From NCBI GenBank assembly GCA_903970545.1, contig CAJCJB010000074.1, forward strand, positions 1-33,203: 33,203 nucleotides of DNA, given 5' to 3'. The notes under the pieces are model-generated. The model had not been told where the DNA came from and did no database searches. It saw nothing but the letters and a program-made list of their open reading frames with translations. Source of the DNA: Candidatus Saccharimonadota bacterium (GTDB lineage Bacteria > Bacteroidota > Bacteroidia > B-17B0 > Aurantibacillaceae). The first letter of the stretch is position 1. Every line of letters starts with the position of its first letter. Shown here piece after piece: positions 991 through 25,376 of the stretch. A program made the position numbers and the translations under genes.

Positions 991-1076
991 ACTGAGCCTG
1001 TCGAAGTATGGGCGTTCCCTTTGATTACAAAGGTCGGGCTTTACACTTCAATCTTTTGTCGATTACAACAAAAGGA
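991..1076. repeat. Intergenic repeat-like element with hairpin
   Basis: The 191-bp gap after pdhB starts with ACTGAGCCTGTCGAAGTA (991-1008), a string I recall as a dispersed intergenic repeat in Bacteroidota genomes. A hairpin follows: CTTTTGT (1053-1059) pairs with ACAAAAG (1068-1074), extended by one wobble pair. No open frame or promoter is convincing here. The dispersed nature comes from memory, since only one copy lies in this window. Confidence 0.4.
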
Positions 1077-1175
1077 TTTTCGTTGCAATCCCTAACACAA
1101 AAAGAGGAATTGAAAAGTAAAGTATTATCCGAAATAAAAAAAGTGTAGCTTTACCTCTTAACTTTTTTAGAACGT

Positions 1176-3140: not shown

Positions 3141-4076
3141 ATGCCCATTCTTCATCCTCAATACATTCAAAAGTATTCTGCTTTAGAGCTATTGGCCAAG
3201 CAGGTGGTAGAGGGTTTTATAACAGGCTTGCATAAAAGTCCGTTTCATGGTTTCTCGGTTGAGTTTGCCGAACATCGTATTTACAACCCCGGCGAAAGCA
3301 CCAAGCATATAGACTGGAAATTATATGGGCGCAGCGATAAACTTTTTATCAAACGCTACGAAGAAGAAACCAACCTGCGTTGTCAGTTGGTTATAGATGC
3401 TTCCTCATCTATGTACTATCCTGTAGATACAAAAGCTGCTGCCGAAGAACAAAACAATAAAATTAATTTCTCTATTAAATGTGCGGCTGCCTTATCAGAG
3501 TTGTTATTGCGACAACGAGATGCCGTTGGTTTAAGTATTTTTTCTGATAAGCTGAACTTTCATGCACCTGCGCGTTCGAGCACGGCGCAAAAAAAGATGC
3601 TGTTTCAGGAGTTAGAAAACTTACAGAAACAATACAACCCAAAAGCCACTGCCGAAACCTTTGCCGGAACGCTGTTAGACCAAATAGCAGAGATAACCCA
3701 CAAGCGCTCGCTCATTATTATTTTTAGCGATATGTTTGATAATGCCGAACGAGAAGATGTTTTATTTTCGGCCCTGCAACATTTAAAACACAAAAAGCAC
3801 GAAGTACTTTTGTTTCATGTGCACGATAAGAAAAGCGAACTGAACTTTGATTTTGAAAACCGCCCCCACCATTTTATAGATATGGAAAGTGGCGAAGAGA
3901 TAAAGCTAAACCCCCAACAGGCTAAAGATAATTACCTAAGCCGCATGAACACCTACATAAGCGATTTAAAAACCAAATGCGGACAATACAAAATAGATTT
4001 TATACAAGCCGATATTGCCGAAGGGTTTGATAAGGTGCTGTATGCCTATCTTGTTAAACGGGCAGCTATGCTTTAA
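3141..4076 (+). CDS. DUF58 domain protein (vWA-like)
   Basis: 311 aa from the ATG at 3141 (MPILHPQYIQK). An upstream in-frame ATG at 3099 lies inside the preceding palindromic repeat and is unlikely to be used. The family signature YNPGESTKHIDWKLYGRSDK, followed by the MIDAS-like DASSSM at about residue 86, marks the DUF58/von Willebrand A-like fold. Such proteins usually pair with MoxR AAA+ ATPases and BatA-type membrane proteins in metal-ion-dependent chaperone-like complexes; none of those partners is next to it here. There is no signal peptide, so it is cytoplasmic. Its molecular function is not established. Confidence 0.85.
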   Translation: MPILHPQYIQKYSALELLAKQVVEGFITGLHKSPFHGFSVEFAEHRIYNPGESTKHIDWKLYGRSDKLFIKRYEEETNLRCQLVIDASSSMYYPVDTKAAAEEQNNKINFSIKCAAALSELLLRQRDAVGLSIFSDKLNFHAPARSSTAQKKMLFQELENLQKQYNPKATAETFAGTLLDQIAEITHKRSLIIIFSDMFDNAEREDVLFSALQHLKHKKHEVLLFHVHDKKSELNFDFENRPHHFIDMESGEEIKLNPQQAKDNYLSRMNTYISDLKTKCGQYKIDFIQADIAEGFDKVLYAYLVKRAAML

Positions 4077-4222
4077 TTTTAAATTACGGAAGACTAACGC
4101 AAATAACAAACCTTTTGCTTATTACATGCGCGTTCCAGCATTTTCAAACAGCAATCATAAAACTTTATACTCCAATAATATTTTTCAGGGATGTTAATCT
4201 CTAAATTGTTTAATTTTAGTCC

Positions 4223-5884
4223 GTGCTTAAAAAGCTTCACATAAAAAACTACGCCCTGCTGGAAGAAGTAACCATTGGCTTTGATAAATCGCTAACGGTA
4301 ATTACGGGTGAGACGGGCGCGGGAAAATCTATTATGCTGGGTGCTTTGGGTTTGGTGCTGGGCGAGCGTGCCGATATGGCCGTGCTGCGAGATAAACAAA
4401 AGAAGTGCATTGTTGAGGCAAGTTTTTTAATCGACTCGTATTCGTTAGAGAACTTTTTTACAGAGAACGAACTGGATTATGAAGCCGAGACTACCATACG
4501 CAGGGAGATTGCACCTGATGGGAAATCGCGTGCGTTTATTAATGATACACCCGTTAATCTTAATGTATTAAAAAGCCTGTCTCAGTTTTTGATTGATGTG
4601 CATTCTCAGCATGAGACCTTGCTTTTAAACCAGGCATCATTCAGGTTTAATATGGTTGATGCGTTTGCGAATTGTATTGAAGAGAGAAAACAATACAATG
4701 GTTTCTTTGTGCAGTTAAAAGAAAAAGAAAAGAAGCTGAACGAGCTACTGACTTTTGAACAACAGGCAAAAAAGGATTTTGATTATTACCAGTTTCAGTT
4801 TACCGAGTTAGAACAGGTAAACCTGAAGGAAGGAAACCTGCAGCAATTAGAGCAAGAGTACGATACGCTGAACAATGCCGAGTTCATTAAACAAAATTTA
4901 GTGAAGGCTTCGGCAAGTATAGATGGTGGGGAGGAGAATATTTTACCGCACCTGTCGGCTTTAAAAAGCAGTTTGGCACAACTTACCCGATATGGCAAAA
5001 CCTATGAGGAGCTTGCTGCGAGGGTGCAATCGGTGTATATAGAACTAAAAGATATTTCGGCAGAAGTAGATAATGTAAATGATAAAGTTGTTTTCGACCA
5101 GCAAAAACTGGAGGACATTACCACCCAATTAGACTTGCTAAACCGACTGTTGAAGAAACACGGTGCAAGCAACGAGCAAGAACTGATAAAAGTAAAAGCT
5201 GAGATAGAAGAAAAACTTAGTCAGTTTAATTCTATAGAAGAGCAGATACAAAAACTACAGACCGAGATTAAAAAACTAAACGAAAGCGTTTGGACAAAAG
5301 CCAAAGCCCTGTCGGATAAAAGAAAGAAGGTGATACCGGTTATACAAACATCTGTGCGCAACATGCTTGCCGATTTAAGTATGCCTAATGCGCAACTGGT
5401 TATTAATTGCAAGCCTACTGAAACACTTGGTAATTATGGATCAGATGAGTTGCAGTTCTTATTTTCTGCCAACAAAGGGTTGCCACTTAGTGAGCTACAC
5501 AAGGTAGCATCGGGCGGAGAGTTATCTCGTTTAATGCTTTGCTTAAAATCTCACCTTGCCGAAAAGACCGCCTTGCCAACCATCATCTTTGATGAGATAG
5601 ATACAGGTGTTTCCGGCGATGTTGCACATAAAATAGGAACTATACTTTTAAAAATGGGTAGCACCATGCAGGTTATAGCCATTACCCATTTACCTCAGCT
5701 GGCATCTAAAGGTAAACAGCATTTGTTTGTATATAAACAGGATATTAAGGAGCAAACACAATCGGAAATTAAAACACTTACTGCCGAAGAGCGCGTAGTA
5801 GAAATTGCCAAAATGCTAAGTACCGGAAAACCCACTGAATCTGCGCTGTTGAACGCTAAAGAGCTTTTGAGTTTAAGGAATTAA
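4223..5884 (+). CDS. recN: DNA repair protein RecN
   Basis: 553 aa, normal RecN length. It starts at a GTG (LKKLHIKNYALLEEV), the conserved N terminus of this SMC-like ATPase. Walker A GETGAGKS lies at residues 29-36. A coiled-coil arm fills roughly residues 150-380. The ABC signature VASGGELSRLMLCLKS and Walker B IIFDEIDTGVSG follow in the C-terminal half. RecN joins broken DNA ends and helps RecA-dependent double-strand break repair. It converges with the S41 protease gene, only 2 bp apart, with no visible terminator hairpin. The last 146 bp upstream hold no other gene. Confidence 0.95.
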   Translation: MLKKLHIKNYALLEEVTIGFDKSLTVITGETGAGKSIMLGALGLVLGERADMAVLRDKQKKCIVEASFLIDSYSLENFFTENELDYEAETTIRREIAPDGKSRAFINDTPVNLNVLKSLSQFLIDVHSQHETLLLNQASFRFNMVDAFANCIEERKQYNGFFVQLKEKEKKLNELLTFEQQAKKDFDYYQFQFTELEQVNLKEGNLQQLEQEYDTLNNAEFIKQNLVKASASIDGGEENILPHLSALKSSLAQLTRYGKTYEELAARVQSVYIELKDISAEVDNVNDKVVFDQQKLEDITTQLDLLNRLLKKHGASNEQELIKVKAEIEEKLSQFNSIEEQIQKLQTEIKKLNESVWTKAKALSDKRKKVIPVIQTSVRNMLADLSMPNAQLVINCKPTETLGNYGSDELQFLFSANKGLPLSELHKVASGGELSRLMLCLKSHLAEKTALPTIIFDEIDTGVSGDVAHKIGTILLKMGSTMQVIAITHLPQLASKGKQHLFVYKQDIKEQTQSEIKTLTAEERVVEIAKMLSTGKPTESALLNAKELLSLRN

Positions 5885-9346: not shown

Positions 9347-10085
9347 TTATCGTACTATAACCACCCGTTTATTTACTACGCCCTCTGCACTTTGCAAACT
9401 TATGTTATAAACACCCTCATTTAAGCTGCTTGAATCTATACTTGTTTTGCCGCTTATGGTTTGGCTTAATACAAGCTTACCAGTTACATCATAAACCTGC
9501 ATGGTTTGTTTGGTTGCGCTGTTTGGCTCTATAACAAAACTACCGTTGTTGGGGTTTGGGTAAATGTTTACCTCATTCTTGTTTGTACTAAATTGTTGCA
9601 CACCTGCAATGCAAGGGTCAGGATAAACATAAATACTAAAAGTACTATCCGGTCCCTGACATCCATTTAATGTAGCAGTAACTGTATGTAATAGTTGAAA
9701 CAATAGTTACCAAAGAAGTATTAACCGTTATAAAAGAAGGCACATCACCGGTTTGTGTACCACCTACTCCACCTAAACCAGTCCATGTAAACACTGGGTT
9801 CCCTCCGGAAGGAAGGAAAACAAAGTTTATGGGAGATGTAGTTTGATTAGGACAATAAAAATAATTTGGTACAGGGGCTACAAGTGGTGTGGGTTTAATA
9901 TTAATCGTATCTATAGCAGGTACCCCAACACAACCACTTAAAATGGGCGTGTATGTTACGACACCAATTTGGTTAGTTAAAGTCGTGTTGCTTGGTGCTA
10001 CATATGCAGCAGGTATACCCGTACCGAATACCGGCATACCTATATTCGTATTATTAGACTTAAAATTCAACATTAAGTTTAGGTT
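9347..10085 (-). pseudogene. Broken T9SS-secreted protein: 5'-truncated and frameshifted
   Basis: The remnant reads in two frames. The upstream part (10073 down to about 9690) encodes PKD-like surface-protein repeats (GTGIPAAYVAPSNTTLTNQ, then FTWTGLGG). The downstream part (about 9690 to 9347) finishes that domain (TVTATLNGCQGPDSTF) and ends in a clear T9SS sorting domain (NEVNIYPNPNNGSFVI ... GVVNKRVVIVR). The frames join if two bases are restored near 9684, where ACACAG has become ACAG. Nothing upstream supplies a signal peptide or start, and the coding stops next to the first 21-bp array. It was once part of a large secreted adhesin-like protein. Confidence 0.75.
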
Positions 10086-10104: not shown

Positions 10105-10244
10105 TGTTTTTGGCATCAACAGTGGCTATTTTGAAAGGAACCGCGGCTACTTCGAGAGAAACCGCGGCTATTTTGAAACAAACCGTGGTAATTTTGCAAT
10201 TAACCGTTGCTACTTAGAAAAAAACCGGCGTGTGCATAAAAATA
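10105..10244. repeat. 21-bp tandem array 1 with conserved leader
   Basis: Five to six units in exact 21-bp register begin at 10119, 10140, 10161, 10182, 10203 and 10224, with consensus near ACCGCGGCTATTTTGAAA plus three variable bases. The sequence TGTTTTTGGCAT...AGTGG (10105-10125) precedes and overlaps the first unit. It recurs at the head of the larger array near 21212. Because 21 bp is seven codons, one frame reads NRGYFER-type heptapeptides, but no start codon exists between its upstream stop (10085-10087) and the array. A hairpin (ATTCTTA/TAAGAAT, 10294-10312) lies downstream. The array fills the 312-bp gap before the DsbD-like gene. Confidence 0.8.
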
Positions 10245-18395: not shown

Positions 18396-18671
18396 TTTCT
18401 TTTTCCTTGACGAAAAAGAAACAAAAAGTCAAGACCAAACGATCTGCCACGCACAAGCCAAACTGCTCCGCGTTCGGTCGAGCTGCCCGCTGTTTCAAAT
18501 AAGGTTAATCTAAACTTTATGATTCGCTGAGTGCGGCTGGCGTCCACGAAAGGTGCGAACCGAAAGTTTTCTGGGCGATGCAGGGTTGTTTGTGTACCAA
18601 GAAAAGCTTTGGGTTGGCTTTCGTGGGGCACTTTCTTTGCTTCGTTTCTTTGGGCAAACAAAGAAATGAAG
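18396..18671. repeat. Hairpin-ended intergenic element upstream of recA
   Basis: The 614-bp gap between the transglycosylase and recA holds no convincing gene. A segment of about 276 bp is bounded by two strong hairpins: TTTCTTTTTC/GAAAAAGAAA (18396-18421, loop CTTGAC) and CTTCGTTTCTTTG/CAAAGAAATGAAG (18640-18671, loop GGCAAA, one wobble). The interior is clearly more GC-rich than its flanks. Open frames run across both strands but have no initiation signals. I recall similar sequence being over-annotated as short hypothetical proteins in Bacteroidota. It may be a non-autonomous mobile element or a structured RNA. Confidence 0.5.
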
Positions 18672-18844
18672 AAGAAAAAAGCAGCCAATTACAGAATTAA
18701 ACAACTTTGTTTTAATTGCAAATTATTTTAGCACATAATTCTGTTGTAAAACAATGATAAAATTAATTATACTGAAAATCAACTATATATAACAATATAT
18801 TGCTAATATTTTTAGTTTTTTAAAATTCGTGTTGTTCTTTAGCA

Positions 18845-21163: not shown

Positions 21164-21211
21164 TACTACCTAATCCCCCACAACCCTCTGCCAACTTTAA
21201 AGCAAGCAAGC

Positions 21212-21749
21212 TGTTTTTGGCATAAATAGTGGTAAAATCAACGTTATGCTTGCATCGCTCGTTAGCATCCTTACATCGCTTCACGCGATGCTTGAATGAT
21301 TGAAGATTTTGCTTACATCGCTTTCAATTATCCTTGCATCGCTTCACGCATTGCTTGAATGATTGAAGATTTTGGTTGCATTGTGTTTAATTATCCTTGA
21401 ATGATTAAAGATTTTGCTTGCATCGCTTTCAATCATCCTTACATCGCTTCATGCGTTGCTTGAATGATTGAAGATTTTGGTTGCATTGCGTTCAATTATC
21501 CTTGCATGCTTTAAAGCTATCCTTGCATCGCTTTCAATCATCCTTACATCGCTTCACGCGATGCTTGAATGATTGAAGATTTTGCTTGCATCGCGTTCAA
21601 TTATCGTTGCATCGCAACAAGCTGTTCAAGCATCGCGTTAAGCGGAGGGAGGTTGCTGCAAAATTATGCTTGCATCGCGTTCGATTATCCTTTCATCGCT
21701 GCAAGCGATGAAAGTATCGCTACGAGCTATGTGAGGTTGCTTCAAACCG
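21212..21749. repeat. 21-bp tandem array 2 with conserved leader
   Basis: From 21246 to 21749 the sequence divides into 24 consecutive units of exactly 21 bp, without a single register slip; a 25th starts at 21750. There are three unit types: A near TTGCTTGCATCGCTTTCAAT, B near ATCCTTACATCGCTTCACGC, and C near ATGCTTGAATGATTGAAGAT. They follow one another as B-C-A, a 63-bp higher-order repeat seen from 21267, 21330, 21435 and 21540. After 21603 the units diverge. Hairpins form within it: CATCGC/GCGATG (21274-21290, again 21547-21563) and a perfect 10-bp stem TTTCATCGCT/AGCGATGAAA (21691-21713). The leader TGTTTTTGGCAT...AGTGG (21212-21232) matches that of array 1. Confidence 0.9.
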
Positions 21750-21898: not shown

Positions 21899-22252
21899 TA
21901 AGCAGGCCGTTCTATCGCTGCGGGAATACCCGCAGAGGAAAGTCCGGACAACACAGAGCACCTAACCTTTTGAAAAAGAGGGTATGCAAAGGGCAACTTA
22001 GCATAACAGATAGTGCCACAGAAAATATACCGCCATGCTTCGGCAGGGTAAGGGTGCAAACGCGAGGTAAGAGCTCACGCACAACGGCAGCAATGCTTTG
22101 TGAGGAAAACCTTAGGGGTTGAAAAGCCAAATAAGTTGCGGTTTAAGCAGCTCGCTTATGTTTACTTCGGTAAACGCCGCAATGGGTAGGCCGACCAGAT
22201 AAATGATAGAAGCCGCGCAAGCGGAACAAAACCCGGCTTACAGGCCTGCTTA
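21899..22252 (+). ncRNA. rnpB: RNase P RNA
   Basis: About 354 nt, the catalytic RNA that matures tRNA 5' ends. The hallmark conserved segments appear in order: GAGGAAAGTCCGGAC (21936 onward), ACAGAAAATATACCGCC near 22018, GGTAAGGGTGCAAACG and GAGGTAAGAGCTCACGC near 22060, and AAATGATAGAAGCC followed by ACAAAACCCGGCTTACAG near the 3' end. The terminal P1 helix pairs TAAGCAGGCC (21899-21908) with GGCCTGCTTA (22243-22252). It is a type A RNA. An open frame on the opposite strand inside it is not a gene. A T-rich stretch follows the 3' end. Confidence 0.97.
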
Positions 22253-22300
22253 TTTTTTGTTTTACGAAGTAATGTCTCTTAAAGAGAGGTTATATAAACC

Positions 22301-24011: not shown

Positions 24012-25376
24012 ATGAGAAAGTATCAGAAATTCGTCCCTGATGAAAGAATTCGTATTGTTTTTAAGGGATTAAGCAAAAAAACCACCGTTTCAAGACTTTG
24101 TATTGAGGAAGGAGTTAGTACAAGTCAATTTTATAACTGGAAAAATTTAATACTCGAAGTTGTTAAAAATAATATCCCTAAAAAAACTAAAATATTAATA
24201 GAAGAAAAAAGTCTTATCGAAAAACAAAAGAAGATTATTAGTACTCTTGAAGAGAAAAACAGGTTACTTAAAAATTATATTAGAAATAGTGGGTTGGAAA
24301 AAAGATATTTTCGATATAGTTTCCTTCAAAAGAAAAAAATAATAGAAGTAGTCGAAAAATCTAATTTATCCCTAAACGATACTTTAAAATGCTTATATGT
24401 ATATAGAAGCAATTTTTACAAGTGGAAAAAAGAAATGGAACTTAATCCTGACGGTAAACACCTCTTTGAAAAAGTAAAACGCAAATTTCAATTGCCAATT
24501 TATAGAGATGCTGTTTTTTCTATTTTACATTCTCCTCCAAGAGCCCATGGATTTAATAGAACAACTTGGAGAATGCATGATTTGCAAAAAACCATGCATG
24601 AGAGAGGGTTAGGAATAGGTAAACATTATATTAGCAGAATAATAAAAAACGAAGGATATAGATTTCTAAAAGCACGTAAAGTGTTGACCAGCACTGACCC
24701 AGAGTATAAGGAGAAGCTAAAAAGAATCACAGAAGTTTTATTGAATTTAAAACATGATGAAAAATTCTTCTCTATAGATGAGTACGGTCCATTTGCTGTT
24801 AAAATTCAAGGTGGACGCTCGCTTACACCCCCAGGACAGTATTATACCTATCCTCAATTTCAAAAGAGCAAGGGTTGCTTGATATTAACTGGTGCGCTTG
24901 AATTATCTACCAATCAATTTACCCATTTTTATTCTTTGAAAAAGAACACGGAGGAAATGATTAAACTTCTTGAAATATTGGTTGCAAAATATAAGTCTCA
25001 AAAATGTATATACTTATCATGGGATGCTGCTTCATGGCACGCATCAAAAGAACTTTATAAAAAGGTTGAAGGATTAAATAAAAGTAAAAATTCCCCAACA
25101 GTTAAATTAATCCCATTGCCTGCCTGCGCTCAATTTTTAAATGTCATAGAATCTGTATTTAGCGGAATGGCTAAGGCGGTTATTCACAACAGTAATTACT
25201 CCTCGAAAGAAGAATGCATGTCAGCAATAGACCGACATTTTCGTGAGAGAAATGAATTCTATTTAAAAAATCCCAAGAGGGCTGGGAAAAAACTATGGGG
25301 TAAGGAATTAGTAGTACCTGTATTTAATGAGAGTAATAACTGCAAAGACCCAAAATATCAACATGATTATAAATAA
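24012..25376 (+). CDS. IS630-like DDE transposase
   Basis: 454 aa, longer than the usual ~340 aa of IS630 transposases. An N-terminal HTH of the kind seen in IS3 OrfA (FVPDERIRIVFKGL ... GVSTSQFYNWK, residues 7-44) is followed by a coiled coil (about 62-92) and a second helix-turn-helix region (about 102-140). The IS630 block SPPRAHGFNRTTWRMHDL (174-191) comes next. The DDE_3 catalytic core shows D256 (SIDEYGPF), D338 (LSWDAASWH) and E380 (LNVIESVFSGM). All three acidic residues are present, so it may be active. Known IS630 relatives insert at TA, which agrees with the flanks here. Confidence 0.85.
   Translation: MRKYQKFVPDERIRIVFKGLSKKTTVSRLCIEEGVSTSQFYNWKNLILEVVKNNIPKKTKILIEEKSLIEKQKKIISTLEEKNRLLKNYIRNSGLEKRYFRYSFLQKKKIIEVVEKSNLSLNDTLKCLYVYRSNFYKWKKEMELNPDGKHLFEKVKRKFQLPIYRDAVFSILHSPPRAHGFNRTTWRMHDLQKTMHERGLGIGKHYISRIIKNEGYRFLKARKVLTSTDPEYKEKLKRITEVLLNLKHDEKFFSIDEYGPFAVKIQGGRSLTPPGQYYTYPQFQKSKGCLILTGALELSTNQFTHFYSLKKNTEEMIKLLEILVAKYKSQKCIYLSWDAASWHASKELYKKVEGLNKSKNSPTVKLIPLPACAQFLNVIESVFSGMAKAVIHNSNYSSKEECMSAIDRHFRERNEFYLKNPKRAGKKLWGKELVVPVFNESNNCKDPKYQHDYK

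Follow-up and report, generated by a model that had tools for sequence, protein, structure and literature searches.

Intergenic satellite arrays with a fixed 21-bp step and freely varying sequence in a small clade of Bacteroidota

We analysed a stretch of 33,203 nucleotides (contig CAJCJB010000074.1 of assembly GCA_903970545.1; hereafter the window) that carries a tandem array of 21-bp units upstream of rnpB, the RNase P RNA gene. This main array is a member of a lineage-specific class of non-coding intergenic satellites, consisting of head-to-tail non-coding units with whole-unit turnover, found in the source genome of the window (G000) and in a sister species (G005). The 67 arrays that we compared, one coding repeat counted in, group into 56 clusters by sequence: what they have in common is the period and not the sequence. 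The initial annotation of the window had recognised the main array; what it lacked were the conserved leader, the presence of the class throughout the genome, and the finding that arrays at orthologous sites have had their sequence replaced.

The main array keeps a single 21-bp register

Twenty-four consecutive units without a slip had been described for the main array, and this description holds. Cut at 21-bp steps, the array yields all 24 units in a single register with zero insertions or deletions (indels). The proposed autocorrelation check gives a clear peak at period 21: mean identity at multiples of 21 is 0.557, versus 0.264 +/- 0.007 in 2000 dinucleotide shuffles (z = 40), and the next-best periods (35, 28, and 14) merely have a factor in common with 21. 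The 3' end is weak, with poor copies at 21624, 21645, 21708, and 21729. A 63-bp B-C-A pattern had also been proposed. Higher-order structure is indeed present, but 63 bp (0.59) is only the third-strongest lag after 105 bp (0.70) and 168 bp (0.65), making B-C-A a partial description. Higher-order copies at 42, 63, and 105 bp fit duplication of whole units.

The main array lies ~80 bp downstream of a gene with a SIR2-like domain and 150 bp upstream of the RNase P RNA, and contig C333 of the same genome holds a related second copy (86% identity across 354 bp). We agree with the initial annotation that there is no CRISPR-type invariant repeat: the units are contiguous and variable, unlike the alternation of invariant repeat and unique spacer in a CRISPR array. 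None of the ten window proteins scanned was a cas gene product; no search aimed at cas families was made. The hint that 21 bp might represent seven codons is not supported, as each of the six frames of the main array contains six or more stops. In most other arrays, too, stops interrupt every frame or almost every frame, and their variability shows no consistent three-base pattern; some arrays do have an open frame.

Period-21 arrays are dispersed through two genomes

A search of the rest of the genome and of related genomes, as the initial annotation had suggested, revealed many more period-21 arrays in the source genome and in G005. The window itself contains a second array, and other stretches of the source genome hold more, mostly each with its own unit. 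All densities were obtained from sampled stretches with one census method, and the source assembly is fragmented. With the window included, G000 has 10 period-21 arrays in 191 kb (~50 per Mb); without it, 8 in 158 kb. G005 has 36 in 471 kb (~75 per Mb), one of which (L311) was later seen to be coding. Extrapolation gives an estimate, rather than a count, of ~165 arrays per genome in G000 and ~300 in G005. Arrays are enriched about ten-fold at G005 contig ends (8 of 42 ends versus 0.75 expected; L168, L305, L306, L314, L315, L318, L319, and others), and the true copy number is therefore probably higher than that sampled.

Outside long reading frames the period is uniform. All 26 such arrays in G005 have period 21, whereas all 16 repeats of other period lie inside frames. 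G000 has one array of a different period outside long frames (L193), which we judge to be a short coding repeat from its translation and a conserved G005 ortholog. The arrays are intergenic and occur in all gene orientations, including between convergent genes, and a test of gene orientation showed no preference for promoters or gene ends.

Unit sequence varies while the step is kept

Gap-counting alignment over-called indels even on gap-free simulations, so a register model was used instead. It gave 35 raw register changes versus 3449 substitutions in 14.1 kb, with no change at all in 27 of 48 arrays. By our reading, about nine of the 35 are clear internal shifts of one or two bases; the others are out-and-back jumps or fall at the edges of arrays. 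This corresponds to one register shift per 100–380 substitutions. Arrays simulated with one indel per 100 substitutions gave 24 changes per 2669 substitutions, which places the real indel rate at or below one per 100 substitutions. Alignments of neighbouring DNA suggest roughly one gap per 25–35 substitutions, a rough comparison because the flanks are partly coding. Divergence is slightly higher at the two ends of arrays than in the middle. Polarity from leader to tail was rejected, as there is no gradient from the leader.

The initial annotation had attributed the constant spacing either to slippage of whole units or to selection. That the spacing is conserved is now seen across dozens of arrays of unrelated sequence and in two species, and it follows that the spacing is constrained or generated as such.

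Array sequence is replaced at orthologous sites

Two orthologous pairs were available for comparison between G000 and G005, both in one syntenic block; several other candidate sites were rearranged or coding. Upstream of rnpB, which is 95% identical between the two genomes, G005 has the same leader as the window (90% identity over 50 bp). In both species this leader is followed by a 21-bp array, of 24 units in the window and 26 in G005, and the two array sequences are unrelated. G005 has an open frame of ~200 codons separating the array from rnpB. The site upstream of dsbD holds five units of GGCTATTTTGAAAGAAACCGC in the window and ~14 units of unrelated sequence in G005, between matching outer flanks; at the same site in the five other genus members there is no array. 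A coding repeat orthologous between G000 and G005, by comparison, stays alignable.

A similar pattern is seen within the source genome, where arrays on contigs C5, C7, C18, and C286 have paralogous flanks that are ~75–90% identical to one another over up to 209 bp, yet different units. Conversely, some arrays are related within and between species at non-orthologous sites (for example C16 and C29 of G005, or the main array and C333). Given unrelated arrays at orthologous sites or between similar flanks, and related arrays at non-orthologous sites, the most economical explanation is copying of arrays from one place to another together with replacement in situ.

A leader precedes a subset of arrays

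A conserved leader of ~65 bp that ends in TTTTTGGCATNNNNAGTGG precedes several arrays; that of the main array (CTAATCCNCCACAAACCTTTGCGTTTTTAAAAGCAAGCAAGCTGTTTTTGGCATNAATAGTGG) contains the core TTTTTGGCATNNNNAGNGG. All six exact matches to the core in the source genome abut 21-bp arrays. When the genus was searched with the leader alone, arrays stood at most of the listed G000 and G005 matches, whereas no listed match in the other five genomes had one. The leader is confined to a subset of arrays; C250, C188, and C16, for example, are among the many without a recognisable one. Terminal inverted repeats were rejected as a feature of the arrays, since of 18 arrays just one had the core at both of its ends.

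Outside the genus, the core has one match in 86 other genomes of the family, away from any called array. A search of 395 genomes of the class, with two candidates scored per genome, added one match (G217) that is apparently coding and has no array beside it. Plasmids, phages, and viral contigs gave no match to the leader. Among GTDB contigs, 83 stretches with the core resemble chance matches, and none was shown with comparable arrays; in L117 alone does a 21-bp array overlap the match. The pieces of these 83 contigs contain almost no period-21 arrays. L117, a contig of Peribacillus tepidiphilus, has several arrays of period 20–21 in one region (3310–5372).

The class is dense in one small clade

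The genus set comprises seven genomes (G000–G006). No period-21 array was called outside long reading frames in 189 kb sampled from G003, in 207 kb from G001, G002, and G004 together, or in 79 kb from G006; the single array observed in G006 overlaps an open frame. A sample of 400 kb from seven more genomes of the family likewise gave none. DsbD identity to the window is 89% for G005, 81–83% for G001, G002, and G004, and 72% for G003 and G006. Together with the array-poor relatives, these identities indicate that the class is dense in one small clade. In another family, one 42-bp (2 x 21) array was seen in G027 (L216, 306–600).

Comparison with known repeats

The closest known element in architecture is BrickBuilt, a minisatellite/MITE (miniature inverted-repeat transposable element) of Porphyromonas gingivalis in which all 19 copies share one unit sequence of 23 nt, with 1 to about 23 units per copy, a leader on one flank, a tail, and terminal inverted repeats (PMC4596501). 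Both are intergenic, dispersed elements of Bacteroidota with spacer-free tandem units of similar length and a leader on one flank. Unlike BrickBuilt, almost every array described here has its own unit, the period is 21 rather than 23, no systematic inverted repeats were detected, and copies are by estimate about ten times as numerous.

REP/BIME elements, which are made by RAYT (Y1) transposases, are also dispersed, intergenic, and composed of partly palindromic short units, but their sequence is common to a family, and the present arrays have no family-wide sequence. RAYT was rejected as the maker of the arrays, with two Y1 transposase matches in G000 and none in array-rich G005. Reverse transcriptase did not discriminate, since array-poor species have it as well as array-rich ones.

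The available text of a survey by Subirana and Messeguer reports prokaryotic satellites that vary in repeat length, with many scattered unrelated satellites in some species (PMC6749651). These resemble the present arrays in being short, non-coding, and tandem and, in some species, numerous within a genome; that text does not describe one period held constant among unrelated sequences. Borg elements, as far as the available portion of their description goes, are archaeal and extrachromosomal and carry pervasive, fast-evolving tandem repeats that arise independently (PMC9879509). The arrays in G000 and G005 are likewise pervasive and fast-evolving, but are chromosomal-type intergenic arrays of one fixed period. 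Literature searches, which covered open-licence papers, found no published description of a 21-bp class.

Origin of the fixed step

We consider the balance to be even for a reading in which these arrays form a satellite-like class with whole-unit turnover, whose 21-bp step is fixed by a length constraint, most likely helical phasing. Arrays would start beside a leader or by copying from another array, would grow and shrink through duplication and deletion of whole units, and would overwrite one another by recombination, changing the sequence within the genus. Only copies in exact 21-bp register would persist, since it is length, and not sequence, that would constrain the step. A length constraint is the most likely cause of the fixed 21; helical phasing as that constraint is the least certain part of the explanation. 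Two turns of B-DNA span 21 bp, and no smaller whole number is an exact multiple of 10.5. Units on one face of the helix, as the initial annotation had proposed, would suit a cooperatively binding, largely sequence-blind protein, or an enzyme that copies units.

Several points weigh against this reading. The base composition of the arrays shows no 10.5-bp phasing, and no binding protein or copying enzyme has been identified. The evidence for phased binding is indirect, namely the period of 2 x 10.5 bp and the rarity of register shifts. Only two orthologous pairs are available, and with rnpB and dsbD ~11 kb apart the two sites are not far separated. Finally, a shared ancestral 21-bp array could give a common period by descent.

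As the main rival explanation, pure descent from a single ancestral array is in our view possible, though on balance unlikely. In this scenario the arrays are purely mutational, gaining and losing whole units by slippage and unequal exchange and diverging by point mutation and copying between loci, with neither selection on spacing nor function. The relatedness of some arrays within and between species, the lack of a gene-orientation preference, and the absence or near absence of arrays from other genus members without apparent loss are all consistent with it, and unequal exchange is expected to leave ends slightly more diverged than the middle. However, indels should then build up along with substitutions, yet there is at most ~1 per 100 and probably fewer, and orthologous array sequences are unrelated even though their leader is 90% identical.

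A further and unlikely proposal is that a bacterial system lays down intergenic arrays, and overwrites them, at a constant 21-bp step whatever the sequence, often beside a conserved leader. The agent might be an enzyme that measures out 21 bp by a built-in ruler; alternatively, a protein that organises the chromosome might select for two-turn phasing at hundreds of intergenic sites.

It is improbable that the arrays are regulatory elements, in which transcription factors or sigma54 activators would bind rows of sites two turns apart and act on neighbouring genes. Sigma54-like sites are over-represented near arrays in G000 (8 versus 0.4 expected), some reading out of the array, and rpoN is present in all seven genus genomes. 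The leader core resembles a sigma54 promoter in spacing but lacks the usual -12 bases; as most of the sigma54-like sites are the core itself, we do not claim it as a promoter. Furthermore, the array-poor species have rpoN as well, some arrays sit between convergent genes, and the units differ at almost every site, including orthologous promoters of the sister species. Outward-reading sigma54-like sites of the form TTTGGCAC-N5-TTTG (or GTGGCAC) were seen at the array ends of L180, L190, and L065, and those of L180 and L065 point to paralogous genes to which no function is assigned.

Units show a modest excess of dyad symmetry over controls, strong in about a quarter of arrays, a point in favour of the length-constraint reading that a regulatory role could draw on too. 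A common RNA fold was rejected, as folding is strong only in a subset. Given the symmetry and the units that fold well, hairpin formation may help units to duplicate. Intrinsic curvature from phased A-tracts was rejected, the missing 10.5-bp phasing of composition making intrinsic bending unlikely.

Seven-residue repeats in overlooked small proteins are very improbable: 21 bp does equal seven codons and some arrays are open, but stops refute coding for the main array and riddle most others, and a true coding repeat stays alignable between the two species. An assembly artefact is equally hard to credit. The enrichment at contig ends does show that assembly is disturbed, but the arrays occur in two separate genomes, many lie inside contigs with genes on both sides, the units are diverged rather than identical, and both orthologous sites are occupied in both genomes.

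Features of the window

Table 1. Positions of the arrays, leader sequences, and other features in the window.
Feature	Position	Strand	Remarks
Leader	21169..21235	+	Reads into the main array; homologous leaders abut unrelated-sequence arrays in G000 and G005
Leader core	21214..21232	+	Exact matches abut 21-bp arrays
Main array	21246..21749	.	24 x 21-bp units, non-coding
rnpB	21899..22256	+	Rfam RF00010, 199 bits; orthology anchor, not part of the element
Leader core of second array	10107..10125	+	Exact match
Second array	10124..10228	.	5 units of 21 bp, upstream of dsbD-like gene; unit unrelated to that of the main array
Transposase	24012..25376	+	HTH_Tnp_1 and DDE_3 domains; <3 kb from the main array, no evidence linking them
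Dispersed repeat	18400..18680		Upstream of recA; up to ~280 bp; copies 79–95% identical, mostly partial, in one other G000 stretch and several G005 places
C-terminal sorting-like domain (DNA)	9347..9703	-	Recurs at ~71–85% identity in many places of both genomes
Flavo-1 RNA	1028..1100	-	Rfam RF01705, 57.7 bits

Significance

Families of repeat arrays normally share sequence; here, unit length is constant and sequence is free at many sites of one genome. The complete replacement of arrays at two orthologous sites, in genomes whose rnpB is 95% identical, separates spacing from sequence as the conserved property of non-coding DNA. Comparison of array-rich with array-poor species of the same genus can now test what enforces a two-turn spacing.
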